DNA of 64,000 nucleotides from Zanthoxylum bungeanum. Taxonomy: Eukaryota > Streptophyta > Magnoliopsida > Sapindales > Rutaceae. Within the stretch, counting starts at the first letter, position 1; each line of letters begins with the position of its first letter. Position numbers and translations under genes: made by a program. The notes under the pieces are model-generated. The model searched no databases, had not been told where the DNA came from, and saw nothing but the letters and a program-made list of their open reading frames with translations. The stretch lies in contig SKCR01031842.1 of the NCBI GenBank assembly GCA_019454045.1, forward strand, positions 1 to 64,000, given 5' to 3'. Shown here piece by piece: positions 1,931-64,000 of the stretch.

Positions 1931-2409
1931 ATGGCTGCCACTAATCCATTGATGAAACTTTTGGATTCCAATAAGCTAAAAGGAGCCGAGAACTATTTCG
2001 AATGGGAAATGAACATACGTCTTGTCTTGGATATGAAAAGTTGACTTATGTCACTATCAATCCACTACCTGTTGATATTGATCCTGACTCCACTCCAGAA
2101 GAGCGAGAAACTTTTGATAAATGGAAAGATGATAACCTGAAGGTGAAATCCTACATCTTGGGATCAATGGTTCCAGATTTGCTGAGACAGTACATTGAAG
2201 TATCAGATGCTTGGAGCATCATGCGAACACTCAAGGAGTTGTTAGAGGTAAATCAAGAGATGGAACTTTATCGAAGGTCTAAGGAATTGTTCCGTGCTGA
2301 ACTCAAGGAGGGAGGAGCTGACAGCACTCATGTTTTGAACATGATAAACCAGATTCGATATTTAGAACGACAGGGCATTGTGTTTGATGAACGGCGGGCC
2401 GTAATTTGA
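1931..2409 (+). pseudogene. Copia A gag, N-terminal part, frameshifted
   Basis: The gag starts at ATG 1931 (MAATNPLMKLLDSNKL). That frame hits a stop near 2045, and the reading continues in the frame used by 2002-2409, so there is a frameshift at about 2035. The encoded segment resembles the UBN2-type copia gag: a helical domain with DAWSIMRTLKELLEV and the SKELFRAEL segment. The chain stops at 2409 and resumes in another frame from about 2406. This is a dead copy of the capsid protein. Confidence 0.8.
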
Positions 2410-3515
2410 TTCTGTCTTCTTTGTCTGGTTCTTATGCTGGCTTTGTTTTAAATTTCCATATGCATTCGATGCAAGCCACATACAAAGAACTGCATAACAT
2501 GCTACGCACGATGGAACAAGATTTGAAGAAACGCAACCCCACACTGTATCTTCATGGTAGAGCTGGCTCTTCAAAGACTTATGGGAAGTCAAAGAAAATA
2601 AAGATGGGGAAGAAGAATATATCAAAGAAAAACTCCAAGAAGCGCAAAGGTGCAAAATCAAAAGTAGCTCGTGATCAATGTCTACAATGCAAGAAGTCTG
2701 GACACTGGAAGAAGGACTGTCCAGAACTTAAAGGAAAAGCAGGACCCTCAGGTACGCTTTGTATTTTTCCAATTATTGACATCTCATTAGTCTTAGATGC
2801 AAATATTGGATGGGTGTTAGACACTGGTAGTCCTACTCATATTTGCAATTCCTTACAGGAAATGAAGATTAAAAGAAGGCTGAATAAAAGGGAGATCCAG
2901 CTTAGAGTTGGCAATGACGAGACATTGGATGTCAAGGTCATAGGAACTGTTGTTTTAGATCTCCCAAATAGATGTAAATTAGATTTGCATGACTGTTATT
3001 ATGTTCCCTCACCTATCAGACAAATAATATTACTGCCAATATTAGATAAAGATGGATATAAAAGAAACATTAAGGATGAAACTTTATGTTTGTATGATAA
3101 AGATAATTTATTGAAATATGAATGTTCTTTATCAAACGGTCATTATGTTTTGGAAACATATAGAGATGTCTTTAATATAGAGAAAAATACAAGTAGGAAA
3201 TCTGAATTAAATAATATTGAATTATGGCATATGAGATTGAGCCACATAGGTGTTAGACGTCTATCTAAATTGGTAAATGATGGTTTGATTGAAAATCTAA
3301 CCTTAGATCCTTATCCGATTTGTGAGTCATGTATCCAAGGAAAGATGACAAATGCCTCATTTCAAGGTGTTGGACACCGTGCTGGAGATTTACTGGAACT
3401 AATACACAGCGATGTGTGTGGTCCATTAAATCATGCCACTCATAATGGTTCAACATACTTTGTGACTTTCACAGATGACAAATCTAGATATGGATGTCTA
3501 TCTGATGAAACATAA
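2406..3515 (+). pseudogene. Copia A gag C-terminus, protease and integrase N-terminus
   Basis: One open frame of 369 codons holds, in order, a lysine-rich stretch, a CCHC zinc knuckle (CLQCKKSGHWKKDC, coded near 2679-2720), the aspartic protease site WVLDTGSPTHICNS (about 2811-2850), the GAG-pre-integrase zinc region (LWHMRLSHIG..., CESCIQGKM) and the start of the integrase core (IHSDVCGPL near 3400). It ends early after DDKSRYG because of a frameshift near 3490. The domain order protease-integrase before RT defines Ty1/copia. Confidence 0.88.
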
Positions 3516-3615
3516 GTCGGAAACATTTGACAAGTTCAAAATATTCTGAAACGAAGTATAAAAATAAATCAGTAAATTCATCAAATGTCTTAGATCAGAT
3601 CGAGGCGGTGAATAC

Positions 3616-3915
3616 ATGAGTGAAGAATTCAGAAATTATTTAAGGGATAATGAAATTCTCGCCCAATATAGCATACCAGGAACACCTCAACACAATAGAG
3701 TATCTGAGCGTAGAAATCTTACTTTATTGCATATGGTGCGAACGATGATGATCTATACAGATCTTCCTTATTACCTTTGGGGTTACGCTTTACTAACTGA
3801 TGCCTACATGTTTAATAGGGTTCCATCGAAAGCTATTTGTACGACCCCCTATCAGATATGGTACGGTAGAAATCCAAGTCTTAAGCATTTAAATATTTGG
3901 GATTGTCCTGCATAA
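3616..3915 (+). pseudogene. Copia A integrase core, C-terminal part
   Basis: A frame fragment continues the integrase: EEFRNYLRDNEI, GTPQHNRVSERRN (the copia PQ(Q/H)NGV-type segment) and PYYLWGYALLTDAY. A TAA stop at 3913 interrupts it where the chain should run on toward RT. The bases 3516-3615 still encode integrase residues but are shifted and stopped. Confidence 0.85.
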
Positions 3916-4067
3916 GTTAGAATTGCGCAGCGAGATAAACTAGCACCCAGGGGTATAAATATAGGTTTGTTGGATATCCTGATAATTCCATGGGATATCA
4001 ATTCTACGATTCCGAACAACGAAATGTAAATATTGTTCGCTTTGTAACTTTTCTTGAAAAGTAATTT

Positions 4068-4397
4068 TTGAGAGAAAGTAGGAATTGTAGAGAGATTAAA
4101 CTTGATGAGTTTGATCCCAACATTAAAAAACCTGAGATGGAACCAGAGATCCAACTAGGTGAAGGATCTACAACACAGGTTCTACGTAAATCGAATAGAA
4201 TATCAAGGCCCCCTGAAAGATTATTTTTAACATCTGATGTGAGCCTTGATGTTCTCCTCTTGGAGGAAACAGATCCGACTACGTATAAGGAAGCGATATT
4301 GGATATCGATTCGGGAAAATGGCAAGACGCCATGAAATCCGAAATGGATTCAATGCATGTCAATCAAGTCTGGGACTTAGTTGAACTTCCCGAATGA
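4068..4397 (+). pseudogene. Copia A linker between integrase and reverse transcriptase
   Basis: The fragment carries the typical pre-RT segment: RKSNRISRPPERL followed by KWQDAMKSEMDSMHVNQVWDLVELP, which is the entry to the RVT_2 domain. It ends in a TGA at 4395 where the family normally reads on. Confidence 0.82.
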
Positions 4398-4841
4398 GTT
4401 AAACCTATTGGTTGTAAATGGATTTACAAAAGGAAATGATGGCCCGATGGAAAGGTGGAAACCTTTAAGGCCCGACTGGTAGCGAAAAGTTACACTCAAC
4501 GTCCTGGGATTGACTATGAGAAACTTTTTTCACCAGTAGTCATGCTAAAATCCATTAGGATTTTCTTAGTCATTGATGCATATCACGACTATGAGATATG
4601 ACAGATGAATGTGAAAATCGCTTTCCTAAATGGATTCCTTAAAGAGGATATCTATATGGAACAACCAAATGGTTTCGTATCTAGTGAGACTTCAAACTTG
4701 GTTTGTAAGCTCCAAAAGTCTATTTATAGACTTAAATAGGCATCCCGAAGCTGGAATCGTCGTTTTGATGAGAAAATTAGATTATCCGGATTCATCGAAA
4801 ATGAGGAAGAACCATGTGTTTATAAGAAAGTTAGTGGGAGC
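4398..4841 (+). pseudogene. Copia A reverse transcriptase, N-terminal part, several stops
   Basis: RVT_2 motifs can be read through stop codons: GCKWIYKRK, ETFKARLVAK, GIDYEKLFSPV and AFLNGFLKEDIYM. In-frame stops are seen near 4437, 4599 and 4737. Confidence 0.82.
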
Positions 4842-5426
4842 ATGATAGTTTTCTTAATCTTGTATGTAGATGACATCATTATTATAGGAAATGATATAGG
4901 GATGATGCAAAGTGTGAAAGCCTACCTTTGCAAGAACTTCTCAATGAAAGATATGGGTGAAGCTTCCTATATACTAAGTATAAGGCTCTACCGAGATAGA
5001 GTTAGGAAGCTTATAGGGTTGTCACAATCGACGTACATAGACAAGATATTAAAAAGGTACAGTTTCACCAACTACAAGATAGAAAATGTACATTTCCGAT
5101 ACGACATACATCTTTCGAAGAAAATGACACCTCAAACTGAGGAAGAGGGAGTTAGAATGTCTAACTTGCCATATGCTTCTTGTATTGGAAGCATAATGTA
5201 TGCAATGCTATGTACTAGACTTGACATCAGTTTCAACGTCAGTGTGACCAACCGATATCAATCTGATTCAGATAATATTCATTATACAACCGTGAAACAT
5301 ATCTTAAAGTATCTTAAAGGCACCAAGGATAAGTTTATGATATATGGAGAAGATGAGCTACAAGTTAAAGGTTATACAGACTCCGACTTCCATGGAGATC
5401 CAGATGATAGAAAATCTTCATCATGA
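4842..5426 (+). pseudogene. Copia A reverse transcriptase, catalytic part
   Basis: The 194-codon frame contains the catalytic YVDDIIIIG motif (YVDD at about 4863-4874) and downstream RVT_2 segments (KDMGEASYILSIRLYRDR, LSQSTYIDKILKRYS, YTDSDFHGD). Two TGA stops near 5424 break it before RNase H. The start used here is simply where the frame opens. Confidence 0.88.
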
Positions 5427-5849
5427 TAAATATTTACCCTTAACGGTGGTGCTGTAAGTTGGCGTTGTTCAAAGCAAGGCTCAACAACTGATTCCACCAC
5501 TGATGCGGAATTTATAGCAGCTTCAGAAGCTGCTAAAGAAGTTGTTTGGATTAGAAATTTTATCACAGAACTTGGCGTTGTGTCTAGTATTGCGGATTTG
5601 ATCACATTATACTGTGATAATAACGGAGCCATCGCGCAGACTAAGGAGCCGATGACGCATTCCAAGTCTAAACACGTGGAAAGAAAATACCGCGTAATTA
5701 GAGAGATTATTGAACGAAAAGCCATAGTGGTCTTGAAGGTTCAAGGACAAGACAACATAGCAGACATGCTTACAAAGGCCTTACCTCCTAAGTTATTCGA
5801 TAAACATGTGGAGGAGACGAGACTACGGTACCATCCAAATTGGCACTAA
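5427..5849 (+). pseudogene. Copia A RNase H
   Basis: The frame encodes the copia RNase H: GGAVSWRCSKQ, STTDAEFIAASEAAKE, LYCDNNGAIA and KHVERKYRVIREI, then the C-terminal DMLTKALPP segment. The stop at 5847 lies just before the PPT, as expected for an intact 3' end. Confidence 0.88.
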
Positions 5850-9030: not shown

Positions 9031-10110
9031 CTAAGAAGATTTAGGAGCCTCCGGTTTTCTGAGGAGAACCATGTGCATCGGAGTGAAGATTCCGATCTCG
9101 CCACCTCTGGTCAAATAATCAGCAGTCTTAAAAAGCATCTCGTGAACATCAACGGTTCCTTTTGGCGCAATCCCCAAGGCGGCAAGTATTGTAACAAGAA
9201 TGTGGTTCCTCCAGTAAGCTATCCGGCCCATCTTGAGCCGGGTCCACCACGGCTGGGTCGGCGGTTTAGCTAGATCCTTCTCTTTCACAACCTCGAAGCC
9301 AACCCTTTTGGCTATCTCGGTAATTTCCGCGTAGCATCTGAGCCCAGGCAACGCATCTCCACGTTCGATGCCCTGAATGATGTCCACGTGTACTGCGTTA
9401 TCGGCTTTGTATTTGTCAGTTGTAACCCACTCGTACGACACGTACAGAGATCCAGGCTTCAAAACCCTAAAGATCTCCGCGTATACATCTTCCAGCTTCG
9501 GCGCGTGACAAGTCGCTTCGATTGAGTACGCCCCATCGAAGCCGTTGTCGTCGAACGGCATCTGAAGGAAATTTCCGCAAACGACTTCGCAGATTGAATC
9601 TAATCCCGCTTTCTTGTTGTGCAAGCGAGCGCGGTTCACTTGGTACTCGTTGATCGTAATGCCGACAACTTTGGCGCGGGAGTGAGCGGCGATGGCACGC
9701 ATGGGCCCACCGACGCCGCATCCGACGTCGAGAATGCTATCTCCGGGCTCGACGCTAATGAGATCGACGGCCATCTCCTCGTGGAGTCGCGTAGCATCAC
9801 CGTGGGATTTTCCGGGAATGGATGGTGAGAAGTGGAAGGACTGGCCCCACCCCCACTCGTAAATGTCTGTGACTAAGTTGTAAAAGGTGTCCACGAAATC
9901 TGGAACCTTCTCCTTGGTTGTTTCTTTAGGGAGTTTGAAGAACTTCCAATAACTGTCGTAATTGTCTTGGACTTCCTCGGCGGAGATCGAGCCGCCGGTT
10001 AGATCGACTGCGCGTTTGCCCTTTTGTTCGGCGGGGCCGAGTACGCAGACGAACCAATAGAGGCCGACGGCAAGAAGGGCGCCGCTGCAGAAGAGAGCGA
10101 GAGAGTCCAT
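9031..10110 (-). CDS. SMT2: 24-methylenesterol C-methyltransferase 2
   Basis: The enzyme adds the second methyl group to the sterol side chain (24-methylene lophenol to 24-ethylidene lophenol), steering flux to sitosterol and stigmasterol rather than campesterol. It acts at the ER. The 359-residue protein is full length for the family. It has an N-terminal membrane segment (about 4-25), the sterol-methyltransferase signature YEWGWGQSFHFSP (84-96), the SAM-binding motif I LDVGCGVGGPM (127-137), YSIEATCHAP (195-204) and the conserved C-terminal block DVHEMLFKTADYLTRGG. The N-terminus MDSL... and single-exon structure match SMT2/SMT3 rather than SMT1, which acts on cycloartenol. The frame is uninterrupted and much richer in GC than its surroundings. 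It is the only ordinary host gene in the window. Confidence 0.96.
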   Translation of the reverse strand: MDSLALFCSGALLAVGLYWFVCVLGPAEQKGKRAVDLTGGSISAEEVQDNYDSYWKFFKLPKETTKEKVPDFVDTFYNLVTDIYEWGWGQSFHFSPSIPGKSHGDATRLHEEMAVDLISVEPGDSILDVGCGVGGPMRAIAAHSRAKVVGITINEYQVNRARLHNKKAGLDSICEVVCGNFLQMPFDDNGFDGAYSIEATCHAPKLEDVYAEIFRVLKPGSLYVSYEWVTTDKYKADNAVHVDIIQGIERGDALPGLRCYAEITEIAKRVGFEVVKEKDLAKPPTQPWWTRLKMGRIAYWRNHILVTILAALGIAPKGTVDVHEMLFKTADYLTRGGEIGIFTPMHMVLLRKPEAPKSS

Positions 10111-10150
10111 TGAGAGAAAATGGGAGTGCCGTTGGACAAATTGAACGGTC

Positions 10151-10166
10151 TTTTATTTATTTAAGC
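10151..10166 (-). promoter_or_regulatory. Possible SMT2 TATA box
   Basis: On the minus strand CTTAAATAAATAAAAG lies about 40-55 bp upstream of the SMT2 ATG. This would leave a very short 5' UTR, so the true core promoter may lie further out. Confidence 0.25.
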
Positions 10167-48599: not shown

Positions 48600-49893
48600 T
48601 GATGCTTGCCAAGATGACACGCTCAAAAAGTGGTTCTTTACTCCCAAGTATAAGAGTGTCGAAGTAATAAAATAACTCGGTAAGTCCGGGGTCGATCCAC
48701 AGTTATTAGATATAGTAAAATAAAATAATAATTTGAGTAAAAATAAAAAGGCTTGATTTGTTTGAAATGATTGGAAATTTTAAATTAGATTGCAACAATA
48801 AAATAAAATATTGGGGGTTAAGGGATCCACTTTTAATATTTCAAATTTAAAAATCTTACTTTTTCTAATAAATAAATTATCATTATTACTCAATTAATTT
48901 ATTTCAGGAATTAATTATGCCAAAACATATAAAAATCAGCCATAAAGGCGGTGATAATATTTGTCCATAATAAGTCAAGTTAGGTATTCAATTATGCCAA
49001 ATAAATAAAACCAGCCATATAGGCGGTAACAAAGTTTGTCAATAATTAATCCAGATTTAAATTAAGTATTAATCATTATATTAAAATTTATATATTATAA
49101 TATAAGTGAGATTAATATATATTTTCATATTAAAAGCTCCACCCTTTAACCACATCAAAAAGAAATTAGCTACTCATAATTTGAATAAAAACACACATAA
49201 TTTTATTATTTAAAGAAAAAGAAAATACAAGAAAGATTTTAAAAAATAAAACACACAAAAGCTAGAAATCCATAAATTTTCGGAGAAAACTATGGAATCT
49301 AAACTGAAGAAAATGAGGTGTTGAACACCTCTATTTATAGAGGTGCTCGCACCTCTTAACTTCAATTGCAATTGCAAAAAATTAAGCATGTTTGGTGGAG
49401 AGTGGATTGCTATCATCCAATTATTATTTTTTATTTTTTATTTCTACTTTAATAATTACTTATAACACACTTTCGATATTTCATCAATTTCGGCCTTGAA
49501 AACTTCAAAACTAGAAAAGCTTGTCAACAGTTAAGTTGTAGATCTTTAAGTCTTCTTTCATCTGGAACTAGAATAACTTCAATCCGATATCAGAGTAAAA
49601 CATTATGACCAAAATACGACGATTGTGCATGGATGGAATTTCTGAATTTATACACTGTTAGAACGCCCTTTCAAGTTTTTGGCCTCCAAAATCCAAATAT
49701 CATGTTTATTTTTCTAGTTATACATTCAAAGTATTATTTCACCTACATAAGAAATAAAAATCACAATAAAATATATAAAACATAAATTTAATTATTATTT
49801 TATAAATATGCTAAATTAAAGGAATTAATAAAATTACAAGTGTAAAATGATTACTTTTTCTTTTAATAAATGTGCATTTTTTAGTGTTCATCA
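48600..49893 (-). repeat. LTR of the 48.6-kb element
   Basis: TGAT...ATCA termini. Contains AGCCATAAAGGCGG and AGCCATATAGGCGG segments, also present in the LOG element LTR near 58460-58505. Confidence 0.75.
49326..49345 (-). promoter_or_regulatory. TATA box inside an inverted repeat
   Basis: CACCTCTA-TTTA-TAGAGGTG: 8-bp perfect arms with the TATAAATAG core (minus strand) spanning the centre. Confidence 0.5.
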
Positions 49894-51639
49894 CACCTCA
49901 AACCAGCTTATTACTAGTCCCTAGTAATTTAAGCGAAAAAACTTTAAAATGACAAATTCTTATCTAAATTAATAATTGTTTTCTTTCTTTCTAAATGATC
50001 AAATAGGTAAATTTTCCTGTATTTTTTATCATTCTTCCATACACATATAAAACAAGGTATTAATCTATTCGTTTTACTCACAATATTCACAGCTCTTGTT
50101 GAAAAGAAAGTAATATTTTCGTTCTAGAGTTATATCAAAATTCACACCTTTTTGGCAATGAAAATTTATTTATAAACACAAAAATAGTTTTTTTTTTTAA
50201 AATAATTATACATCTTCAATCCTTACAACAAGCTTTGGGTCAGTGACTCCCAAACCAGTTGGCTTTAGGGAACTAGGTGTTAAGACACCCCTACAGACCT
50301 AATTGCTCGGATCTCAGATGTTAAAAAGAAGAAATGTTTGATTTCCTTAAGCTTTCTCTTTAACCCATGCAACAAGCTTCAGAACTAGAAAATCTCGTCA
50401 ACATCAAAGTTGTAAATCTTTGAGTCATCTTTCATCTGGAACTAGAATCACTTCAATCCAATATCGGAGTAAAACTTTATGGCCAAAATATGATAATTGT
50501 GTAGGGCTGGAATTTCTGAATTTGTATACTGTTAGAACGCCCTTTTAAGTTTTTGGCCTCCAAAATCCAAATATCATGTCCATTTTTCTAGTTATGCATC
50601 CAAAGTATTATTTCACCTACATAAGAAATAAAAATCACAATAAAATATATAAACATAAATTTAATTATTATTATATAAATATGCTAAATTAAAGGAATTA
50701 ATAAAATTACAAGTGTAAAATGATTAATTTTTCTTTTAATATATGTGTACGTTTTAGTGTTCATCACACCTCAAACCAGCTTATTACTAGTCCCTACTAA
50801 TTTAAGCGAAAAAACTTTAAAATGACAAATTCTTATATAAATTAATAATTGTTTTCTTTCTTTCTAAATGATCAAATAGGTAAATTTTCCTGTATTTTTT
50901 ATCATTCTTCCATACACATATAAAACAAGGTATTAATCTATTCGTTTTACTCACAATATTCACAGCTCTTGTTGAAAAGAAAGTAATATTTTCGTTCTAG
51001 AGTTATATCAAAATTCACACATTTTTGGCAATGAAAATTTATTTATAAACACAAAAATAGTTTTTTTTAAAAAATAATTATACATCTTCAATCCTTGCAA
51101 CAAGCTTTGGGTCAGTGACTCCCAAACCAGTTGGCTTTAGGGAACTAGGTGTTAAGACACCCCTACAGACCTAATTGCTCGGATCTCAGATGTTAAAAAG
51201 AAGAAATGTTTGATTTCCTTAAGCTTTCTCTTTAACCCATGCAACAAGCTTCAAAACTAGAAAAGCTTGTCAACATCAAAGTTGTAAATCTTTGAGTCTT
51301 CTTTCATCTGGAACTAGAATCACTTCAATCCGATATCGGAGTAAAACTTTATGGCCAAAATATGATAATTGTGTAGGGCTGGAATTTCTGAATTTGTATA
51401 CTGTTAGAACGCCCTTTCAAGTTTTTGGCCTCCAAAATCCAAATATCATGTCCATTTTTCTAGTTATGCATCCAAAGTATTATTTCACCTACATAAGAAA
51501 TAAAAATCACAATAAAAATATATAAACATAAATTTAATTATTATTATATAAATATGCTAAATTAAGGGGATTAATGAAACTAAAAGTGTAAAATGATTAA
51601 TTTTTCTTTTAATATATGTGTACGTTTTAGTGTTCATCA
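49894..51639 (-). repeat. Two tandem copies of an 873-bp unit
   Basis: Units 49894-50766 and 50767-51639 have the same length and are nearly identical. Each joins about 480 bp of internal 3' sequence to about 390 bp of LTR. The LTR part is also present just before the first unit (from about 49500). Confidence 0.92.
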
Positions 51640-52284
51640 CCAGACCTGTTCTATTATTGCTTTATTAATATTGTAATAACTTATGGACATTTATTTTATT
51701 TACTATCTTTATAAAATAGTAAATTTATGTTTGCGCTTTGTGTGTTTCTTTAAATTTTTTTTTTTTTTTGTGAAATTGCATTATAAGATGTGGCGATACT
51801 TCCTTTAAGCATGAATATTATACTGGCATCAGTAATGGACCATTCCAAATCCAAATGGGTTTAAGGTCCGACCTTGCGAGATGTGTTGTGTGGTCTTAAA
51901 TCATTCCCAATGTCTCATACTATGTGGCAACTCCCTTATTCTCCGGTTATTCTCCATGCGGGGCTATCCCTACTCTCTACTCTCTACCCTTTACGAGCTA
52001 CGAGCCCAACAGTGTAGTGGTCGCCGACATAATAGGCATAGTAGTAAATCTTGTTTCGCTCCTACAATATTGTTTCATTTATAACATATTTCTGTTATAT
52101 TATTTTCCAAAAAAATTTTTAAAAAATGAAAAATATAAAATATGACATATATATGTTAAAAATATGTCGTAATTTTATAACACAAATCATTTTATCACAC
52201 AGAATTATAATAAATTTATGACATTTTCGAGACATTTTTTTCTGTCATAAAAATATCATAAATTAGTTTTTTTTTTAAGTAGCG
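51640..52284. other. Unassigned sequence ending in a CACTA-like terminus
   Basis: About 650 bp with a T15 run near 51755, no gene. The right end, read on the minus strand, is CGCTACTTAAAAAAAAAAC followed by GTCATAAA/TATGACA subterminal repeats, which resembles a CACTA DNA transposon end with one changed base. Copia sequence resumes directly at 52285. No second terminus was found. Confidence 0.35.
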
Positions 52285-52954: not shown

Positions 52955-53601
52955 TGTATGGGTCAAGGGTAAAATCTTCTTTTCACCTTGGGCCCAATAT
53001 CATTCCAAACTCAAATGTCTAATAATATATGGCCCATGAGACAACTATTCTTATCTAAAGCCCAACTCATACAAATACCTAAATTCATGGGCCAAAGATG
53101 GACCAAGGAACTAAATACCTTTCAGGCCCACAAACTAATGAGAGGCCTACCAAACAACCTTTAGACTTACCAGCTACCAAACTTAAGAAACGTATTTTTT
53201 ATGATTAATAACCCCACATGATTGGCCGTTTTGGACACTAAAGGGTTAAACATTTACTATATTAATCAAACTCATATCTTGATAGCCTATAAAAGGGGAG
53301 CCACAATTCAGAATTGGAGGGAGGTTGGGAGCTCTCATAATTGAGCTTTCAAAAGAGATCATCCTCTAAACACCAGCTCACCGCCCTCATGGCACTCTAC
53401 GAAGGTCAAGATAACCCTGAACCTTGCTCTTCCAATATTTTTCGCTCGTCTTCACTACTGATTTAAGCATCGAATTACCTACGGCACCTACCACACTGGT
53501 GGGTAGGAACTCCCTGCTCACTTTACCTTTGTCTTGCAGGATCGCTAGTACCCCATTCCGACAAATTCTCGATTGTGGACCTGAGGTGAAAATTGCATCC
53601 A
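52955..53601 (+). repeat. Tat-like 5' LTR
   Basis: From TGTATGGGTC to TTGCATCCA. Contains a TATA box (TATAAAAGG, 53288-53296). Confidence 0.92.
53288..53296 (+). promoter_or_regulatory. TATA box of the Tat-like LTR
   Basis: TATAAAAGG, duplicated at 57172-57180 in the 3' LTR. Confidence 0.6.
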
Positions 53602-53605
53602 TAAT

Positions 53606-53623
53606 TTGGCGCTCGCCGTGGGG
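53606..53623 (+). other. Primer-binding site, Tat type
   Basis: TTGGCGCTCGCCGTGGGG, four bases after the LTR; close to the PBS of RIRE2/Grande-type elements. Confidence 0.8.
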
Positions 53624-53805
53624 CTTTAGCGATTTATAGCAAGTGAAGATCTCTCAGTCTACGATCCTTACAAATCATAGCTTCAAGCAACGAGCAGACA
53701 CTAGACCCTGTGGCCGCTCGGTTGGCCATTCTCCGATAACAGTTATGAGTTTTAGAGGAGGAAAACTCAGCCATGTGAAGCTCTAATATGAACCTCCAGA
53801 AGTAG

Positions 53806-54660
53806 TTGGAGCAATTTTCCTCTACCTCCAAACGACGCAAAGCTCCATATCACCCCAGCAGTCTTACCATTCGATTCGGCCTATTGAAGGCATTCAAAAA
53901 TATGGCAAGCGAAATTCTGCCATCAGACAACCATCCACCAAATCAAGATAGAATTCAACATATCTCCCCAATCGACCAAGCACGACAAGTTTCCTCCACC
54001 ATGCGCAAGGAAATGCAGGAGTTCAAAGATGCAATTCTCTCCAGCCTACATAGTGTCAGACTACCAGTGAGAAAAAGTCGAGTCTGCACGATCTCAGATA
54101 CTCCTTTTTTAGTATCCATCATTTCCATCGAATTACCACGAAAGTTTAGCCCACCAGATATGAAGCTGTATGACAGATCCATAGACCTAGACGACCATGT
54201 GGTCTATTACAAATACAAGATGATGTCGACTAATCTGGATCCTCATCAATGGGAAGTTAGAATGTATAGAGGATTTGGAGAAACATTGACAGGCCCAGCC
54301 CTCACTTGGTTCATCAATCTACCTTACAGGACTATTGGGTCATATCAAGAACTAGCTGATAAGTTTGTGGAGAAGTTTGTCAACTCTTGTAAACTTGAGA
54401 AAAACCACAGACGACCTCAACGCAATACAATAAATGAGAATCTCTACAAGGCTACGTCACATGTTTCAACAAAGAGGGAATATCCATTTCGGATCTCCAT
54501 CAGCCGACTATCATTGAAGCTTCATGAATGGGTTACTAGCAGATAGTGAACTTTATGAGAAGCTAACAAAATTCCGATGTTACACTATGGATTAGGTCAT
54601 GGCCCGAGCCCAAATCGAGGTCATATGGGAAGAGGACAAGAGGAGCAAGAAATAGGATGT
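53806..54660 (+). pseudogene. Gag remnant of the Tat-like element
   Basis: The first 246-codon frame (53806-54546) includes a Retrotrans_gag domain: KFSPPDMKLYDRSIDLDDHV, YRGFGETLTGPALTWFINL and YQELADKFVEKF. A frameshift near 54405 moves the chain to another frame (FQQRGNIHF, SFMNGLLADSELYEKLTKF), which has stops near 54430 and 54595. Capsid-type protein, no longer functional. No zinc knuckle was found. Confidence 0.8.
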
Positions 54661-55014
54661 TCCCATTAATCGCTATGAAGAGAAAATTTCAAACCCTTCC
54701 AAACAACGAACGGGTTCGAACACAAGGACCCATCAACCAACAGACAGTCGGACTTCGCAAGCTGGGAATCATCACCCTAAAAATAAGGATTATAAACGCA
54801 GGCCTTCAACCTACATGATACGACACCGGTCTTCAGTGAATTTATCTCATTCGACATCAAGACCAAGCGACGCTTAAATATGAAAATTTCTTATATATCA
54901 AAGACAAAAGACTATTAATATTAAGAAAATATTATTTTTACATATGGATCATCAAATGGCCCAATTGACATACTTCTCCCAGCCGATATGGGAATACCTC
55001 CGTAAATCTCCATC

Positions 55015-55255
55015 ATACCCAATCGACCAAGAAGCATTCTATAAGATTGTCATCTTCTCCAGATAACGAGGAAGAATTGTTACTACTCAAGATGACATGG
55101 ATGAATTATCATCTACTCCATACAACATGGATGGACTGTCATCTACTCCAGACTACATAGAAGGATTGTCATCTCTTCCAAACGACATGAAATGATGGTC
55201 ACTTTCTCCAGACGACATGAAAGGATATTCATTTTCTCCAGACTACATACCTCCT
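55015..55255. repeat. Array of about 30-36-bp repeats
   Basis: Units of the form TTGTCATCTACTCCAGAC-GACATGGA, about seven, imperfect. Confidence 0.75.
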
Positions 55256-55256
55256 G

Positions 55257-55690
55257 ACCTTCATCGCGTCGAGTAAAGTGAATAATCATGATGACTTTCA
55301 TCAGGTCTAATCGACCGAAGCCTCATGACCTTCATCGGGTTGGGTAAAGTGAAGAATCCAGAGGACCTCCATCAGGTCCAGTCGACCAAAGCCTCATGAC
55401 CTTCATCGGGTCGAGTAAAGTTAATAGTCCCAATGACCTCCATCAGTTTCAGTCGACCGAAGATTCCTGACCTTCATCGGGTCAGGTGGAGTGAAGACCC
55501 TCATAGACCTTCAACAAGTCCAGTCGACTGAAGACTCTCTCGAACCTTCATCAGGTCCAGTGGAGTGAGGACTATCATGCACCTTCATCAGGTCCAGTTG
55601 ACCGTAGTATTATGGACCTTCATCAGGTCTAGTAGAGTGGAGACTCCTTTAGGACCTTCATCAAGTCCAGCGGACTAGGGATAATCTGCA
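55257..55690. repeat. Array of about 71-bp repeats with half-units
   Basis: Six units built on ACCTTCATCAGGTCCAG and GTCGACC-type pieces; each unit holds two related half-repeats of about 36 bp. Confidence 0.82.
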
Positions 55691-55954
55691 AGGATAGAGT
55701 TATGATAATTTGGAAGATAATAGCCTCAAAGATCAAAAACTTCATTATTCCACATATGACATAAAGAATATGTGTAAGTTATAAGAGGACCTTCCCACGA
55801 CTCAGACATCATAATATGGTCTCAACTCTAGAGAGCCACCAACTGTCTTTACCGATATACTCTCCAGATGACAGGTAAAAGTAATTTTTTCCTTGCTGCT
55901 AATCATGATTTGTGGTTTCAAGTTCACAGAAAATGTCATATGACATACACAAAC

Positions 55955-56400
55955 ACATGGACCTTCATCTGGTCCGGATGACATTGAAGACTCCCCCGAC
56001 CCATAGCTGGTTTGGTCAACTGGAGATTATCTTGGCCTTCATCTGGTCCAGTCGACGGGAAAATTCCCAACATGACTTATATCGAGTCGAGTCAAGACCT
56101 AGACCTTCATCTGGTCCAAATGATATTGAAGACTCCCCCGACCCTTAGCTGGTTTGGTCGACTGTATCTGGTCCAGTTGACGGGAATATTCCCCACATGA
56201 CTGATGTCGAGTCGAGTCAAGACCTGGACCTTCATCTGATCCAGTTGACATTGAAGACTCCCTGACCCTTAGCTGGTTTGGTCGACTGGACATTATCCTG
56301 GCCTTCATCTGGTCAAGTCGACGAGAATATTCCCCACATGACTCATGTCGAGTCGAGTCAAGACCTGGACCTTCATTTGGTCTAGATGACATTGAAGACT
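55955..56400. repeat. Array of about 130-140-bp repeats
   Basis: Three to four units with ACCTTCATCTGGTCC, TAGCTGGTTTGGTCGACTG and ATGTCGAGTCGAGTCAAGAC. Short ORFs on both strands here come from the periodicity. Confidence 0.82.
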
Positions 56401-56745
56401 CCCCCGGTCCAAGCTACATCAACACCATGGTCGGGTCGACCGAGGATCATCCCTAACATTTATTTTTTTTCTTTAATTATGACATTTGACAAATCCAAGC
56501 AACATCAACACCTAGGTTGGGTCGACCGAGGATCATCCCAGGACCGAGGAACATCATCATCCAGAACTGGTCGGTTGAGGACCATCCCAGATATTTATTT
56601 TGCTCCATCAACATAGTTTGACCGTTGACAGGCCCAACCGACAACAACGTCTAAGATTGGTTTACTAAGGATCATCCCAAATATTTATTTAGCTCCATCA
56701 ACATGGTATGACCTTTGACAGGTCCAAACGACATCAACATCCAGG
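56400..56745. repeat. Repeats with GTCGACCGAGGATCATCCC
   Basis: About four units ending in ATTTATTT and CATCAACA segments, decaying toward the 3' LTR. Confidence 0.65.
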
Positions 56746-56838
56746 TACGCTTGCGTGCTTTATACATACCCCAAACAACATACTCATTGAATACTCTCCA
56801 AGCCAAGAACTCTTTGACTTACAGAGTATGGGACAAAT

Positions 56839-57486
56839 TGTACGGGCAAAATTTGGACCAATGGTAAAATCTTCTTTTTACCTCGGGCCCAATATCATTC
56901 CAAACCCAAATGTCTAACAGTATAAGGCCCATGAGACAACTATTCTTATCTTAAGCCCAACTCATACAAATAATCAAATTCTTGGGCCAAAGAACTAAAT
57001 ACCTTTCAGGCCCACACCCCAAGGAGAGGCCTACAAAACAACCTTTAGACTTACCAGCTACCAAACTAATGAAACGTCTTTATTATGATTAATAACCCCA
57101 CGTGATTGGCCGTTTTGGACATTAAAGGGTTAAACATTTACTGTAATAATCAAACTCATATCTTGATAGCCTATAAAAGGGGCCACAATTCAGAATTGGA
57201 GGGAGATTGAGAGCTCTTATACCTGAGCTCTCAAAAGAGATCATCCTCTAAACACCGGCTTACCGCCCTCACGAAAAACTACGGAGGTCAAGGTAACCCT
57301 GAACCTTACTCTTCCATTACTTTTCGCTCATCTTCATTACTGACTTGAGCGTCGAAGTGCTTACGGAACCCACCACACCGGTGGGTAGGAACTCCCCGCT
57401 CACTCTACCTTTGTCTTGCAGGATCGCTAGTGCCCCATTCCTATGAATTCTCGTTTGTGGACCTCGGGCGAAAACCAGTGTCCACA
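56839..57486 (+). repeat. Tat-like 3' LTR
   Basis: From TGTACGGGC to GTGTCCACA, followed by the repeated GTCCT. Several mismatches and small indels against the 5' LTR. Confidence 0.92.
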
Positions 57487-57629
57487 GTCCTTAGCTTACT
57501 ATAATAAATTTTGAACTTGATTGAGTTTTTGTTATGAATTGTTCATAATAGGTGTAAATGGTTTGCGTAGCAGAAGCAAAGTAAGCAGATTGAAAGTTTG
57601 ACATTTATAGTTTGACAATGAGAAAGGTT
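57487..57629 (+). pseudogene. Copia internal fragment, right part
   Basis: Continues the copia C-like sequence (compare about 37005-37150). It ends at 57629 where the LOG-carrying element is inserted. Confidence 0.82.
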
Positions 57630-58913
57630 TGACCGGCGTAAACACACACGTATAACGCAAGCATCGTACAAGTAGTATAAAAATATCGATCCCACGAGGA
57701 CTTAATTCCTACTGTTGTTATTAATTGTTGAATCTATTTATTTACAAATATCTAATTAAGGGTGAAGAGAATGATTGTTTGAATGGTTGAATGTGGTTTT
57801 GCAAAATAAATAAATAAATAAAAAGACAAAAGAAAATACTAAGGAAAATAACAAAAGACACAAAGATCTAGGGTTGTGAATCATTCTAATATCTTTTAAA
57901 AGATGAAGTGATTATTTTATGTTTGTGTAATAAATCAGTTACTAACCCGGAACACTAAATTATGCAAAAGCCTCTGTCGATGGTCAGACGCAAATACCCA
58001 GTTTAACCCAATTGAACCATATGTCTATGTCAACCAAATTATCTGGATTCATTAAGTTTAAGTTTTAATTATGGCTACCCCCGCCTGACAGGTATATGTC
58101 TATCCTGTAAGGAAACCTATTAAAGGGTTATATATCCTCAAGGAAGATCGCGGGCTATTAAGTCTAAGGCTGAAACCTAAAATCCATATGTCTAGTTCAT
58201 TTTAGATTTACCAGATCAATCTTATTGGTGATCAGACAACAAGAAGCAATAAGCTTAAGACTTAATAAGTAAACCTTTAAATTACCCAAACTATAAAATA
58301 ACCCCTTATAAACCGGTGATATTAGAATTCATCACAACCCCAAATTACTTTTACTACTACTAATTTAGATATCTCCCATAAAATAATATATACACTTGTG
58401 ATAATATTACCAACCGACCAATCTGACGGTATCCTGATTAAGTCAAATTAAGTCCAACCAGCCATTAAGGCGGTAATATTTGTCCATAAACCAGCCATAA
58501 AGGCGGAACCAAAATTAAATTACCAACCGACCAATCTGGCGGTATCCTTAATTAGTCAGGTTTAAACAAGATTAAAATTAAATTATCAACCGACCAATAT
58601 AGCGGTATCATTTTTAAGTCAATATTTTAAATAGTGAATATATTATTTTTAAGGGAGATTAATCTAAATAGTAACAGTAAAAGAATTACCTTTCACCCTA
58701 GCTGGGGAAGTTACCTTCTCATGGTGAATAGTAAAAACTGTAAAAAGTAAAAAGTAAAAATTAAATTACTATTATTACAAAAAGTAATTAAAATTATTTA
58801 CAAAACTAAAAAATTAAAAAAACTAAAAACTAAAAGAATCTAGAGAGAGAAACTCTCTCTTTACATAGAATAGAAGAGAGAGAGTGGTGCAACTAAAACT
58901 GAAATTTGAAGCT

Positions 58914-58923
58914 CTATTTATAA
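58914..58923 (-). promoter_or_regulatory. LTR TATA box of the LOG element
   Basis: Minus-strand TTATAAATAG. Transcription would start near 58890, making U3 about 0.7 kb and R-U5 about 1.25 kb. Confidence 0.55.
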
Positions 58924-59043
58924 GCCCTGGTAGGCTTCCAACGTCACGACTCCAAGGCCTTTTGGCATCGCTACGCCAGCTTCTGTCGATGTTGCACGCT
59001 CTGGTTCGTCGGTTTGCAGATTCTAGATAAGCTGATAAGGTGA

Positions 59044-59338
59044 CACGTGGCAGAGTGGTTGGGCTTCAATTATTGTGACACGTGGCGGCTTCTGATTGGT
59101 CGATGAGATTCTTATCCGCCACGTGTCAGATAAGGATTAGATACTCAATGATTGATGCTGATGTGGCGCTGACGTGGCGGTGACGTGGAGTGACACGTGG
59201 CACACGTGGCGATGGCAACTGTCGGCACCGTAGGATGCTGACACGTGGCACAACGCATGTTAGCAATCGGCTGTGATGGTGACACTTGGCACGGCGCACG
59301 TTAGCAAAGTCAAACTTTTCTTAGATTCTGACACGTGG
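59044..59338 (-). promoter_or_regulatory. G-box/ABRE-like cluster in U3
   Basis: Seven CACGTG cores at 59044, 59079, 59120, 59194, 59203, 59242 and 59332, most as ACACGTGGC, plus two GACGTGG at 59171 and 59182 and a decayed CACTTGG at 59283. They lie about 120-420 bp upstream of the TATA box. CACGTG is bound by plant bZIP and bHLH factors (light, ABA). Confidence 0.75.
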
Positions 59339-59598
59339 ACCAGGCGCACATTAGCACTGTTCGGCGCACGTTAGGCGTCGGGACGCTGAAGGTCTTGGCG
59401 TCGCGACGCGGGAATTTACCAAAATGCTATTTTCGTCCAATTTTCACTGTTTTGGCCCAAATCACCTCCAGAATGTCCTGAAACTTTATTTATCTACAAA
59501 ATAACACAAAACACATCAAAATATTCACAAAACTCAAGAAACTATACAAAATATTAGGTTAAATGAGTGGGAAATAGTGATAGATTTACCACTCATCA

Positions 59599-59611
59599 CA
59601 CCCCTAAACCT
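59599..59611 (-). other. Polypurine tract of the LOG element
   Basis: Minus-strand GGTTTAGGGGTG, preceded by CTCGAGGACTAGCAAAA, directly before the LTR start TGATGAG. Confidence 0.75.
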
Positions 59612-60908
59612 AACATTTTGCTAGTCCTCGAGCAAAATATAAAATAACATAAATAAATTAACTAAGCCACTTTCGTAGGGATCACGGTTGCATTTAACGT
59701 ATGTAACAAGCCTTTAAACCCCTAGGTGTCCCTAGTGGACGAGTTGTAGTCTCGTGAGGGTTTACAGCAATGATACCCACAAATATTTTACAAAAGTAAA
59801 AATGTAGTAAAACTAATGCACACAAAAGCAAAAAGACAAGCGAAAAGAGAATAAAGATGTTAGTGACTAATCGGGTGAAACTTCTACTCCAAGTTACTAG
59901 TTGTTTTGTTTTATTCTAAATTACTGAATAAGTAAATTCTCCGATTATTTTTACCATTCTTCATATACATAGCCAACAAAATATTAAACAACTTATTTTT
60001 GCCCACAACAGTCATAAGTGCAGTTGATAAGAGAGTAATATTTTTGTCCTAAAGTTCTATCAGATTTCACACCTTCTTGGAGCAATGGAATAATTTTTCT
60101 CATTTTTCTGATTTTTTTCTTTGATTTTTCTCTATTTTTTTTTTATATACAATACTTTCCGTCTATGTAGCGAGTGTTGGGTCGGTGACTCCCAAACCAG
60201 TTGGCTTTAGGGCACCAGGTGTTAAGACACCCCTACGGACTTAATTACTCAGACTTCAGATATATATATTTTTGCAGCATCTCGATCCATGTAACGAGCT
60301 TTGGGCCAGTGACTCCCAAACCAGTTGGCTTTAGGGCACTAGGTGTTAAAACACCCTTACAGACTTAATAACTCGGATCTCAGACGTTTTTTTTTTTTTT
60401 TTTTACTCCATTGCATTTTGAGATGTTTCCTCCAATTAAACTAGAGCACTGAATATTACAAACTTTTCAATTTTAGCTCATGTCCGTATGTTACTATATA
60501 TGTTGATAATATCTGTCAACTGAGCATATGAAGATCCATTTTAGTCCGTTTTAAGGAGAATTCACAAATTAAATAATTCAAAATGAAATAAACAAAAATT
60601 AACTTGTTTCGAAATATGTTTGAGATACGTCTCAGGAGTGGAAACTCCTTACTCAGCTATCTCTTACCAATTTCACCTTTTTAGTCAAATAAAAATGCAA
60701 AATATTTTTGTAATTTTGAAAATTTTCCAATTTTTTTTTTCCGAAAATTTTTGGACTAAAAATAAAAAATAACACACAAACTAAAATAAGGTACTGATCA
60801 ACTAATTCCTTCCCCCAAACCTAAATGAGACATTGTCCCCATGTCTTAAACAGTAAAATGAGAGTTAAGAAGGTCGTACCTGGTTAGCTGAAAGTCTTAC
60901 ACGAAAAG
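59612..60908 (-). other. 3' untranslated internal region of the LOG element
   Basis: About 1.3 kb without a gene. It contains two copies of GTGACTCCCAAACCAGTTGG (about 60185 and 60309), a T18 run (60387-60404), and on the minus strand GGGGACAATGTC...GTTTGGGGGAAGG (60812-60843). The latter is a second PPT-like signature usual upstream of the 3' LTR in Athila/Tat-type elements. A direct repeat of sequence found upstream of LOG lies at 60629-60666. Confidence 0.6.
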
Positions 60909-61562
60909 TTAAAGGTTAAGATCTAGATTAATCCGACGCCTCTTAACACGATCGTCCTCGGACCAATTTATCTTTGAAATGATAGGGTCAACTTGTGGTT
61001 CATAGGTAATGAGTTGGTCTATTAGATCCGGAGCAGTTCTGGCAGTGAAGAGGAGTTCTTTCATAGGTTTTGACACGAACCCATTTCTTCGAGCATCATC
61101 AAGAAACACACAAAGAAAATCATAAAATCCATCAACTTTGAACAGTCCAAGCGGTTTCTGGTGTATGTTCAGGTTCGCCCAAGATAGAACTATAAAAATT
61201 TCCTCCAATGTACCCAAGCCACCTGGCAAAGCGATAAAAGCATCAGCACGGTTAATCATTTCTACCAGTTGTTCAGACATACCTGGCACGATCAGTTCCT
61301 CTTCGTTTGATGATCCAATAAGATTTGCCTCTGCCAAGGGTTTTGGGATGATTCCCAAAACATGACTGCTTCCTTCCTGTACAACCTTTGAAACGATCCC
61401 CATAAGTCCGAGATTGCCTCCGCCATATATTAAGTGCATATTCCTTGCAGCTAAGACTCGACCCAATTCATGTGTTGCTTCTACGTATTGTGGCTTAACA
61501 CCAACACTACTACCGTAAAACACACAGATGTTTTCAACTCGTCTTCTTGAAGTGGCTTCCAT
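60909..61562 (-). CDS. LOG-family protein (cytokinin riboside 5'-monophosphate phosphoribohydrolase-like), captured in a retrotransposon
   Basis: LOG enzymes release active cytokinin bases from their nucleotides in the cytosol. The 217-codon ORF is complete and has the Rossmann-like fold motifs in order: ICVFYGSS (12-19), YGGGNLGLMG (46-55), LGIIPKPL (69-76), and ADAFIALPGGLGTLEEIF (106-123), containing the PGGxGTxxE signature. FKVDGFYDFL follows (141-150). Length fits the family. Two features are odd. The usual M..RK..M segment before the signature reads MSEQLVEM, so the Arg-Lys pair is absent and activity is doubtful. The tail KRRRINLDLNL adds a basic cluster and an LxLxL EAR-like motif. 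Host LOG genes have several introns; this copy has none, consistent with a spliced mRNA being captured. It is in sense orientation to the LTR promoter. The ATG sits in an A-rich context. Confidence 0.9.
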   Translation of the reverse strand: MEATSRRRVENICVFYGSSVGVKPQYVEATHELGRVLAARNMHLIYGGGNLGLMGIVSKVVQEGSSHVLGIIPKPLAEANLIGSSNEEELIVPGMSEQLVEMINRADAFIALPGGLGTLEEIFIVLSWANLNIHQKPLGLFKVDGFYDFLCVFLDDARRNGFVSKPMKELLFTARTAPDLIDQLITYEPQVDPIISKINWSEDDRVKRRRINLDLNL

Positions 61563-62103
61563 TTTTTATGTATTTCTTTTTCAAATCATGATGCCTTCAA
61601 AAGTGTAATGACGGGCTGAATTTATAGTACCTTTTATAGTACCTGAAAAAGGGTGAGTAATAATAGCACTAATATCTTCCAAAGGACGATTGTTAGCTAA
61701 ACAACAAAAGAAATCTTGAAAGGTCAAAAATTCTGGATCCTGTCTACAAAAATAAAGATAATTACAACAGAAAAGCGAATCAAAGCAATAATTAAGGCAA
61801 CGGAATTGTGTACGCAATACGCCACTCGCTTAGTATAAATTCATTAGGATTCGTCTCAAGATTTTATTCCTTACTCAGCCATCGCTAATGAATTGTTTCT
61901 CATCTTTGATTGCCAAACACCATTCCTTCTGTCTTAAAATGCTTTGTTTGTGCTTTTCCCTACAAAAATAACACATAAAATTAAAAACTCTACAACATGT
62001 ATACACAAAATATGAAAACAAAAATTACAACAAATTGCATGGGTTGCCTCCCTGCTAGCGCTAAATTTTTCGTCTTCAGCCAGACGTGACTGAAATTCAT
62101 CTG
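61563..62103 (-). other. Spacer between gag-like frame and LOG
   Basis: It holds, on the minus strand, GCTGAAGACG and GCGCTAGCAGGGAGGCAACC (about 62038-62072), a motif that recurs downstream of pol in Athila/Tat-type elements (from memory). It also has a CCTTACTCAGCCATCGC segment near 61868-61885, repeated on the other side of LOG, and a 78-codon ORF (61581-61817) in the LOG frame but separated from it by stops. That ORF is preceded by an acceptor-like TTATTTTTGTAG. No known domain. Confidence 0.55.
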
Positions 62104-63399
62104 TTAAGGAGGTTTCAATGTTGTTTTGGATGTCCGATTAAAGACAATCCCGTGAGTATTGCTTTTGAAGGGTCTCTTCCAACGGTAAAGTGGCAAAAAT
62201 AATTTTGTCATATTCAGTGCTCGTGCCACCTTTTTGACCTTTGTTGCTCCAGTGGTTCCTAAAAAGAAAGAAAGAAAATCAGGAGGTCTCGTATGGTGCT
62301 TGACTTTGAATGAAAGTTCCATTTTGTCAAGCTTCTGGGTGATATCTTTGATTTGTACTCCCCAAAACAGTGATATTTCTTCTGAATGCTCTGGATCCTT
62401 AATAAGTTCAAACATTTGCTCCTCCATTTGCTCTGCTTCTTGCTCCACCTTTTCTTCACAGATGAATTTTAAAATTTCTGTATTCAACTCTTTATCCGTC
62501 ATCTGTGAAATGCATGCTCCATAAGTATCTGCCTGAGGATGTAAAGATGTTTCTAACATTAGGTCTTCATCCTCTGATACGACTGGAATGGATGGTTCAG
62601 ATAGATCTTCTTCAAACATCATGGTAAAGCATGCTCCAAGATCTTCATTTTGAGGATTGAAAGTTTGATCCTCCGTTGTTGGTGCAGTTGGTACAAATAG
62701 ATCAGCTTTATCCTCGTCAGAATCTGAATAATAAAAGTCAAATTGAGACTTTGCCGGTTCGGGCTCCTGAACTGATACCTCTGGTTGTTGATACTGCTCA
62801 GCCTCCTCCTCTGTTGAAGTGTCATTTTGAAATGATTGGTACTCGAAGGCTTCATCAGTGTCATCTGAAACTGGTTCTTGAGGTATGTAGTTCTGGTTTT
62901 CTGTGAATTGTCTCATTTGATCTGTCATCCTCTAAATGAATTCTGATTGTCTCTGAATACTTTCAAATTGATTTTGACTTGTTTCAAGAATTGTATCCAA
63001 CTTTTCTTTTCGTTTCTTGAACATATCTTCGAGCATGTTTAGCAACTGATCTTCCTCTGATGGTTCTGGTTGTTGATGAAGATCATAGGTAGATGGTGGA
63101 TAAGATGGAAAATGTGGTTCTGTGAAATGTGATGGCTCGTCATACCATGAAAGATCTTGATAGCTCTGACACCTTGGATGGTAGTTGTATTCACAATAAT
63201 CTCTAGGGTGGTTGCCATTACATATGTCACATCAACCCATTGCGTTCTGTTGAGCAAATGTGGTATTGCTTGAATCTGGCATCCAGTGATAATTGTTGGG
63301 CTGGACAACAGGCCTCAGAAAACCAGATTGTTGCTCCCAGATTTGGGGTGTATCTTCTTGTAAGGCTCGTAATCTCTCAATCTCCCAGTAGTGTTCCAT
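62104..63399 (-). pseudogene. Gag-like frame of the LOG element with two stops
   Basis: Starting at ATG 63399 (MEHYWEIERLRALQED) one frame of 432 codons runs to TAA 62104 and is broken only by TGA at 63232-63234 and TAG at 62932-62934. Right after the first stop is a CX2CX3HX4C knuckle (CDICNGNHPRDYC), of the kind found in Athila/Tat gag proteins. The rest is glutamine- and glutamate-rich, partly coiled-coil-like, with two related segments LGACFTMMFEEDL and YGACISQMTDKEL. No capsid domain is evident. The last 274 codons alone form an open frame from 62928. It may be a gag derivative or an extra ORF. Confidence 0.7.
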
Positions 63400-63507
63400 T
63401 TTTTTCAATCACCTGAAAATACAATAAAGAAAAAAAATTACACATAAAGAAAATTAGATACAAGTAAATTAGATAGCTTCAAAATTAATAACTCAAGAAA
63501 AATAAGT

Positions 63508-63524
63508 CCCTAGCAACGGCGCCA
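63508..63524 (-). other. Primer-binding site of the LOG element
   Basis: Minus strand TGGCGCCGTTGCTAGGG, six bases after the 5' LTR end. It matches the Athila/Tat-type PBS TGGCGCCGTTGCCGGGG at all but one or two bases. Confidence 0.88.
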
Positions 63525-63530
63525 AAAACT

Positions 63531-64000
63531 TGATCGGCGTAAACACACACGTATAACGCAAGCGCACGTATCGTTCAAGTAGTATAAAAATATCGATCTC
63601 ACGAGGACTTAATTCCTACTGTTGTTATTAATTGTTGAATCTATTTATTTACAAATATCTAATTAAGGGTGAAGAGAATGATTGTTTGAATGGTTGAATG
63701 TGGTTTTGCAAAATAAATAAATAAATAAAAAGACAAAAGAAAATACTAAGGAAAATAACAAAAGACACAAAGATATAGGGTTGTGAATCATTCTAATATC
63801 TTTTAAAAGATGAAGTGATTATTTTATGTTTGTGTAATAAATCAGTTACTAACCTGGAACACTAAATTATGCAAAAGCCTATGTCTATGGTCAGACGCAA
63901 ATACCCAGTTTAACCTAATTGAACCATATGTCTATGTCAACCAAATTATCTGGATTCATTAAGTTTAAGTTTTAATTATGGCTACCCCCGCCTGACATGT
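63531..64000 (-). repeat. 5' LTR of the LOG element (U5 end only, cut by window edge)
   Basis: Direct repeat of 57630-58095. The U3 part with promoter and G-boxes lies outside the window. Confidence 0.9.

Follow-up and report, generated by a model that had tools for sequence, protein, structure and literature searches.

A LOG-like gene under purifying selection in a multi-copy family of probable non-autonomous gypsy-type LTR retrotransposons of Zanthoxylum bungeanum

The YgdH domain, which is found in LOG (LONELY GUY) proteins, has been reported in Ty3/gypsy consensus sequences of Citrus sinensis and Citrus clementina and, when no filter is applied, in a Ty3/gypsy consensus of Populus trichocarpa (PMC9289625, citing Steinbauerova et al. 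2011). A LOG gene inside a gypsy-type long terminal repeat (LTR) retrotransposon is hence of a kind already known, while the C-terminal tail and altered active site described below do not appear in the literature consulted. In the LOG enzyme of Corynebacterium glutamicum (CgLOG), Arg99 is proposed to act in catalysis together with Glu122, and the prenyl site is made up of Met96, His97, Lys100, Glu125 and Trp129. Almost all activity is lost when residues for adenosine monophosphate binding or catalysis, Lys100 being named, are replaced by alanine, with the exception of Ser19 (PMC4979012). The tail recalls the ethylene-responsive element binding factor-associated amphiphilic repression (EAR) motif, one definition of which is LxLxL and which is commonest near C-termini (PMC9956375). 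The window analyzed here is a stretch of 64,000 nucleotides of Zanthoxylum bungeanum DNA (assembly GCA_019454045.1, contig SKCR01031842.1, positions 1 to 64,000), at the right end of which lies an LTR retrotransposon carrying a LOG-like open reading frame (ORF).

The analyses make it probable that this element belongs to a non-autonomous family of gypsy type with many copies, in which LOG is an old, inherited accessory gene that is maintained by selection and exchanged by recombination. The complete element spans contig positions 57630-65594 (7,965 bp) on the minus strand and has two TG...CA LTRs, the starts of which (57630 and 63531) pair at 97% identity over 468 columns within the window, together with a primer binding site (PBS) and a polypurine tract (PPT) at the LTR borders (Table 1). 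An earlier, sequence-only reading of this DNA had named the LTR termini, PBS and PPT, all of which we confirmed, and had proposed extending the sequence rightward in search of the full 5′ LTR and a second AGGTT. On the contig the LTR indeed reaches 65594, and the target site duplication (TSD) AACCT, in element orientation, is present at both ends. The proposal of a non-autonomous LTR element with an intronless LOG frame in sense orientation is accordingly supported, TSD included.

The same reading had anticipated further copies combining the LTR with LOG, and these were found. The genome searched comprised 3.96 Gb in 51,709 contigs, and the LOG DNA query returned 5,925 unconfirmed first-look candidates, from which 40 copies (the window copy included) were scored, all of them at 96% or more. 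Nineteen further copies were taken with their flanks, for a total of 20 copies examined. Among the 19 copies with both LTRs mapped, the window copy again included, 14 have an exact 5-bp TSD, four have a TSD with a one-base mismatch and one (L012) has none at its mapped ends, counts that exclude chance; the twentieth copy (L018) has a truncated 3′ LTR. Divergence between LTRs ranges from 0.012 to 0.040 in the 13 pairs measured. The window element, at 0.032, would be about 1.2 million years old at a substitution rate of 1.3e-8 per site per year, a rough age because divergence is uneven along the LTR (93% identity in the piece on the U3, or unique 3′, side and 97% in the remainder). A value of 0.020, obtained from the 464 LTR sites inside the window, was discarded as too low in favor of that of the full LTR pair.

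Selection on LOG was assessed through omega, the ratio of nonsynonymous to synonymous change, against a null of context-specific mutation rates derived from the noncoding 3′ DNA of 19 copies. Omega was 0.457 (0.33-0.64) for the 40 copies, which had been picked by similarity to the window copy, and 0.437 (0.31-0.64) when restricted to those 19 copies, compared to 0.96-1.12 for a noncoding control of 11 overlapping offsets, themselves taken from the rate-setting DNA. Per pair of copies, synonymous differences matched expectation (11.4 observed, 10.7 expected), while nonsynonymous differences fell to about half of it (13.5 observed, 27.9 expected). LOG is thus under purifying selection. Furthermore, omega was alike in the 23 copies with an intact LOG frame (0.47) and in the 17 with a broken one (0.44), indicating constraint on the source lineage rather than on single insertions. 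Shifted LOG frames gave 0.83 (0.58-1.21) and 1.67 (1.16-2.54) in this spectrum test and therefore cannot serve as neutral controls, for which the noncoding offsets are better suited. Plain pN/pS (0.37) was likewise rejected as a clean test, with shifted frames at 0.51 and 1.41 and antisense frames spread from 0.48 to 1.48.

The LOG frame matches PF03641 (E 1.1e-31) and is also identified as LOG by its solved relatives. Its structural model (mean predicted local distance difference test, pLDDT, of 83.9) finds 5zbk and 2a33 (AtLOG3) as top fold matches, and the protein has the domain and fold of a type I LOG with the PGGxGTxxE motif. The catalytic Arg is Gln in the window copy and is kept in 38 of the 40 genome copies, and the pocket residues His97, Lys100 and Glu125 (CgLOG numbering) are replaced by Ser, Leu and Ile both in the window copy and throughout the 23 intact copies, all of which retain the catalytic Glu pair. 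To place these changes we used the best 120 of 7,745 matches to the window LOG and the best 120 of 7,998 matches to AtLOG3. Met96, His97, Arg99, Lys100, Glu121, Glu122, Glu125 and Trp129 are invariant in the best 120 AtLOG3 matches, whereas the best 120 relatives of the window LOG keep Lys100 and Glu125 in eight cases each, His97 in 20 and Arg99 in 107.

A quick tree, built without the four pocket and catalytic columns and without the tail, comprised 121 rows: the window LOG, those 98 of its 120 relatives that are 195-260 amino acids long, 20 of the 120 host matches, AtLOG3 and AtLOG8. The window LOG and its relatives (99 rows) are split from the 22 host rows with a Shimodaira-Hasegawa-like approximate likelihood ratio (SH-aLRT) support of 100. 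On this tree Lys100 and Glu125 are each altered a single time, His97 changes six times and Arg99 becomes Gln five times. The last count, together with the presence of Gln in only two of the 40 genome copies, led us to reject loss of Arg as a trait of the family. The window LOG is 41-43% identical to the four host LOGs aligned with it, and its best 120 relatives extend from 85% to 50% identity, most of them with the same kind of tail. P0008 shares with the window element some sequence directly upstream of LOG, and P0128, a gag relative, shares the spacer. A bacterial or phage source of LOG was also considered and rejected, since viral contigs yielded two loci at 31% and prokaryote contigs none.

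The window copy departs at 12 positions from residues that are unanimous in four near relatives, and six of these departures fit a G-to-A step, a pattern that decay of methylated DNA would produce; a few of the 12 also occur in other genome copies. Given these departures and the loss of an Arg that most of the family keeps, the frame of the window copy is open but the enzyme that it encodes is probably damaged. The LOG ORF that the sequence-only reading called intact is hence open over its 217 residues and altered at a catalytic position, classical cytokinin activation by this copy appears unlikely from its sequence, and the description of the gene as hormone-activating is doubtful here.

The LOG C-terminus joins a basic cluster to LDLNL, in agreement with the LxLxL pattern of EAR-motif repressors. 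Tails with LxLxL within the last 12 residues occur in 89 of the best 120 relatives (partial proteins included) and in none of the best 120 AtLOG3 matches, and 36 of the 40 genome copies carry the tail, which is disordered in the model (pLDDT below 50 over residues 204-217). By this motif, the tail may bind TOPLESS, a corepressor reported as a binding target of the pathogen effectors HaRxL21 and Jsi1. In the literature consulted we found no described case that combines an EAR motif, LONELY GUY and a retrotransposon.

The examined copies fall into two types with different 5′ halves. In 15 of the 20 copies the 5′ half is that of the window element, while a longer type (L020, L021, L025, L027 and L029) has another one, in which the gag domain PF03732 scores above cut-off in L025, L027, L029 and, via L053, L021; L020 has two PF03732 pieces slightly below cut-off, and L025 a weak protease match, also below it. 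In the long type a stretch that resembles an integrase end by eye, with no Pfam match, is followed by an extra ORF and then by LOG. Compared to the window element, the five long-type copies show background identity (37-47%) upstream, 81-83% over the 200 bp that immediately precede LOG, 96-97% in LOG and 92-98% in the 3′ internal DNA. In the R/U5 (repeat/unique 5′) part of the LTR, compared for 16 of the 19 copies, identity to the window element is 81-83% for the long type and 94-97% for the window type, save for L028 (83%). The U3 also exists in two types, with an ACGTG array in 16 of the 20 copies and none in L016, L020, L024 and L030, and varies independently of the R/U5 type. A tree of the LOG copies does not cleanly split the two element types and has no strongly supported branch. 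Such a mosaic would arise by template switching between co-packaged RNAs.

The ORF directly upstream of LOG in the long type (L020:4093-4773, L025:4109-4708 and L029:4344-4733) matches Carla_C4 and Viral_NABP above the Pfam gathering scores, and so resembles a nucleic-acid-binding protein known from plant RNA viruses; it scores below cut-off in L027, and one L021 piece gave no match. RNA-virus sequences are known in plant chromosomes in general (PMC3136472), and we found no paper joining a carlavirus nucleic acid binding protein with an LTR retrotransposon.

The frame between the PBS and LOG is gag-like by its position and its CX2CX3HX4C motif, and a Pfam search of it (63402-62104) gave no gag match. 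The gag-like frame noted in the sequence-only reading is thus present with its motif, and is interrupted by two in-frame stops. It largely fills the 1.8-2.0 kb that separate the 5′ LTR from LOG in 14 of the 15 window-type copies and is weakly constrained, with omega at 0.77 (0.64-0.94) and shifted frames at 1.20 and 1.24 in 14 copies (L023 excluded). It is open over at least 387 amino acids in three of the 15 copies, the value for L023 being disturbed by an insertion. No copy among the 20 examined showed a gag-pol of its own with reverse transcriptase (RT) and integrase, as an autonomous Ty3/gypsy element of Athila/Tat type would. Pfam searches of the submitted pieces of L023 and the five long-type copies returned gag and a single weak RVP_2 match but nothing for RT or integrase, pieces shorter than 60 amino acids and some longer ones lying outside the search. 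L021 spans 15.5 kb, its surplus consisting of antisense ORFs without Pfam match in which no pol was seen. The PBS TGGCGCCGTTGCTAGGGA is one that we take to be tRNA-Asp-like. PBSs of tRNA-Asp type are among those of non-chromoviruses (PMC6317226), and the element would accordingly be of gypsy type, non-chromovirus by its PBS and presumably Athila/Tat-like.

The LTR carries a concentration of promoter-type motifs. Of the 15 matches to ACGTGKC in the window, where 4.05 are expected in 64 kb, 13 are gathered in the U3 array of the 3′ LTR, upstream of the TATAAATA site. Motifs linked to abscisic acid (ABA) are known from the drought- and ABA-responsive Rider LTR (PMC6762207).

Taken together, these data make probable a lineage that copies LOG by reverse transcription and spreads it between element types by recombination, with selection maintaining the LOG protein sequence. 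Movement would take place in trans with the pol of another, gypsy, element, and LOG would go back to one old acquisition. The family protein retains the fold of a LOG, and most copies also retain the catalytic Arg and both Glu; its substrate pocket His, Lys and Glu have been replaced, and a basic cluster and LxLxL tail have been gained. The tail may then recruit TOPLESS-type corepressors in the nucleus, with the nucleotide-binding body acting as a scaffold or binding a changed substrate, and the element may thereby damp host transcription or silencing. Corepressor recruitment is the likeliest function that we can propose for the tail, and even so an unlikely one; hydrolysis of cytokinin or nucleotides by LOG is put at the same low level. 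Still more tentative is the full scenario, in which LOG has become an adaptor for corepressors in the nucleus, directed against host transcription or silencing and driven by an LTR with an array of G-box/ABA-responsive element (ABRE) motifs, and in which the long sister type carries a two-gene counter-defense cassette with its nucleic-acid-binding-protein-like gene.

Several explanations compete with an old accessory gene. The intronless frame inside the element agrees with the idea that the window element itself recently captured the mRNA of a host LOG, a Bs1-like transduction and the view taken in the sequence-only reading. The LOG clade, however, is separate from the sampled host LOGs, the same LOG module is shared by two element types, relatives at 85% to 50% identity mostly have the same kind of tail, and gypsy elements with LOG/YgdH have already been published for other plants (PMC9289625). 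On account of the clade, the shared module and that earlier report we rejected fresh capture as the main reading, to which we now attach hardly any weight. It is also rather improbable that the clade represents a subfamily of host LOGs without introns, an old retrogene family copied repeatedly into elements. Some members do carry the name of a host gene, such as Populus LOGL10, or map to plant chromosomes, as in Xanthoceras, but all 20 flank-examined copies (of the 40 scored) lie between LTRs, one of them truncated at the 3′ LTR, and gypsy consensus sequences of Citrus and Populus carry the domain (PMC9289625). A mere passenger, carried by chance without a role, would account for the broken frames and for the Arg loss and departures of the window copy, but not for nonsynonymous change at half of neutral expectation alongside synonymous change at its expected level, and we regard it as very unlikely.

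Weightier, if still on the unlikely side, is the explanation that the family LOG is an active cytokinin-releasing phosphoribohydrolase, favoring division or an undifferentiated state where the element transposes. The LOG fold, the selection on LOG, and the catalytic Arg and Glu pair speak for this explanation, while the replacement of pocket residues that are invariant in the best AtLOG3 matches, the near abolition of CgLOG activity by alanine changes including Lys100 (PMC4979012) and a tail left unexplained speak against it. Cytokinin production to favor dividing cells is possible for the family and hardly so for the window copy. The accessory-gene reading and its proposed function have points against them as well. 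Many copies are decaying, with only three of 15 gag-like frames open over at least 387 amino acids and 17 of 40 LOG frames broken, and pol was seen in none of the 20 copies examined, so that we infer both partner and lineage. The tail requires eight changes on the LOG tree and is a five-letter motif from which TOPLESS binding is predicted. Basal rows of the clade (P0112, P0033, P0037 and P0038) keep the host pocket and lack the full tail, and the pocket change therefore arose inside the clade. Finally, the host sample was drawn near AtLOG3, with AtLOG8 added, with the consequence that a tailed host group may have been missed, and element context for relatives in other species is limited to P0008 and P0128.

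Table 1. Features of the LOG-carrying element, in window coordinates.
Feature	Coordinates	Strand	Remarks
TSD, left copy, AGGTT (plus strand; AACCT in element orientation)	57625..57629		Right copy just past contig position 65594, outside the window
3′ LTR, 1,969 bp, TG...CA	57630..59598	-	Pairs with right LTR
TATAAATA box-like site in LTR	58915..58922	-	Downstream of ACGTGKC array
U3 array of ACGTGKC (G-box/ABRE-type) motifs	59042..59336		13 of 15 window matches
PPT AGGTTTAGGGGTG	59599..59612	-	Adjoins 3′ LTR
112-nt repeat, two copies, 3′ internal region	60162..60397	-	Relatives in older element fragment within 49950-51194
LOG-like ORF, 217 amino acids, C-terminus KRRRINLDLNL	60909..61562	-	Catalytic Arg to Gln at residue 98
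Acidic gag-like ORF of 432 codons with two in-frame stops (63234, 62934)	62104..63402	-	CX2CX3HX4C motif near start; 14 relatives; omega 0.77
PBS TGGCGCCGTTGCTAGGGA	63507..63524	-	
5′ LTR, 2,064 bp on the full contig	63531..64000	-	Continues past window end to contig position 65594; pairs with 3′ LTR

The 1.3 kb on the 3′ side of the LOG frame has no long frame on the minus strand and contains a 112-nt repeat. A conserved RNA structure of this repeat was considered and rejected, as the two copies in the element fold no better than shuffled sequences (z-scores of -0.64 and -0.35), and a relative of the repeat at 51083-51194 folds better than shuffles (z-score of -3.06). That relative belongs to an older element fragment at 49500-51640 of the window, tandemly duplicated about 0.87 kb apart on the same strand as the LOG element, whose 112-nt repeat it shares along with DNA of the 3′ internal region (74-89%). 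A neighboring LTR element lies at 52964-57474, with LTR-like repeats at 52964-53592 and 56859-57474 (88%) and a Retrotrans_gag-like frame scoring slightly below cut-off. Elsewhere, the window holds pieces of a Copia-type retrotransposon (gag_pre-integrs and RVT_2) at 1975-5849 and an intronless sterol methyltransferase frame on the minus strand at 9034-10152 (Sterol_MT_C, 1.3e-22), the sole clear host-type gene among the inspected window frames of at least 120 amino acids.

The earlier report of LOG in plant gypsy elements is a domain match (PMC9289625), to which the present data add selection, a rebuilt pocket and a tail, and with them a function that can be tested. If the tail binds TOPLESS, these elements would use the same corepressor as the effectors HaRxL21 and Jsi1. 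For genome annotation, tailed LOG-like genes may be element genes rather than host cytokinin genes.

Among known systems, the Citrus and Populus elements are alike in having a LOG-type domain inside a plant gypsy LTR element; they were found through RT-anchored consensus sequences, while no pol was seen in any of the 20 copies examined here, and the active-site change, tail and selection described for the window family go beyond that domain report as consulted. In orchids, gypsy elements that encode an AlkB m6A demethylase likewise carry a host-type enzyme as an extra ORF of a gypsy lineage, with the difference that the enzyme is another one and its activity was assayed, whereas the LOG family is known from sequence (PMC9289625). 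AtLOG3 (2a33) and the plant LOG enzymes share with the window LOG the fold, PGGxGTxxE and the Trp, and differ from it in that the window protein has its pocket His, Lys and Glu replaced, has lost the Arg, ends in the LxLxL tail and is encoded without introns in an element. Maize Bs1 is similar as a cellular sequence in a non-autonomous LTR element. Bs1 is reportedly a low-copy capture, unlike the LOG family, in which the gene is common to many copies and under selection. The tomato element Rider is an autonomous copia element. Its LTR resembles the one described here in carrying ABA-type motifs, with one ABRE-like site named and a response to drought and ABA demonstrated, while the window LTR has an array of ACGT sites in its U3 that may make it inducible (PMC6762207).

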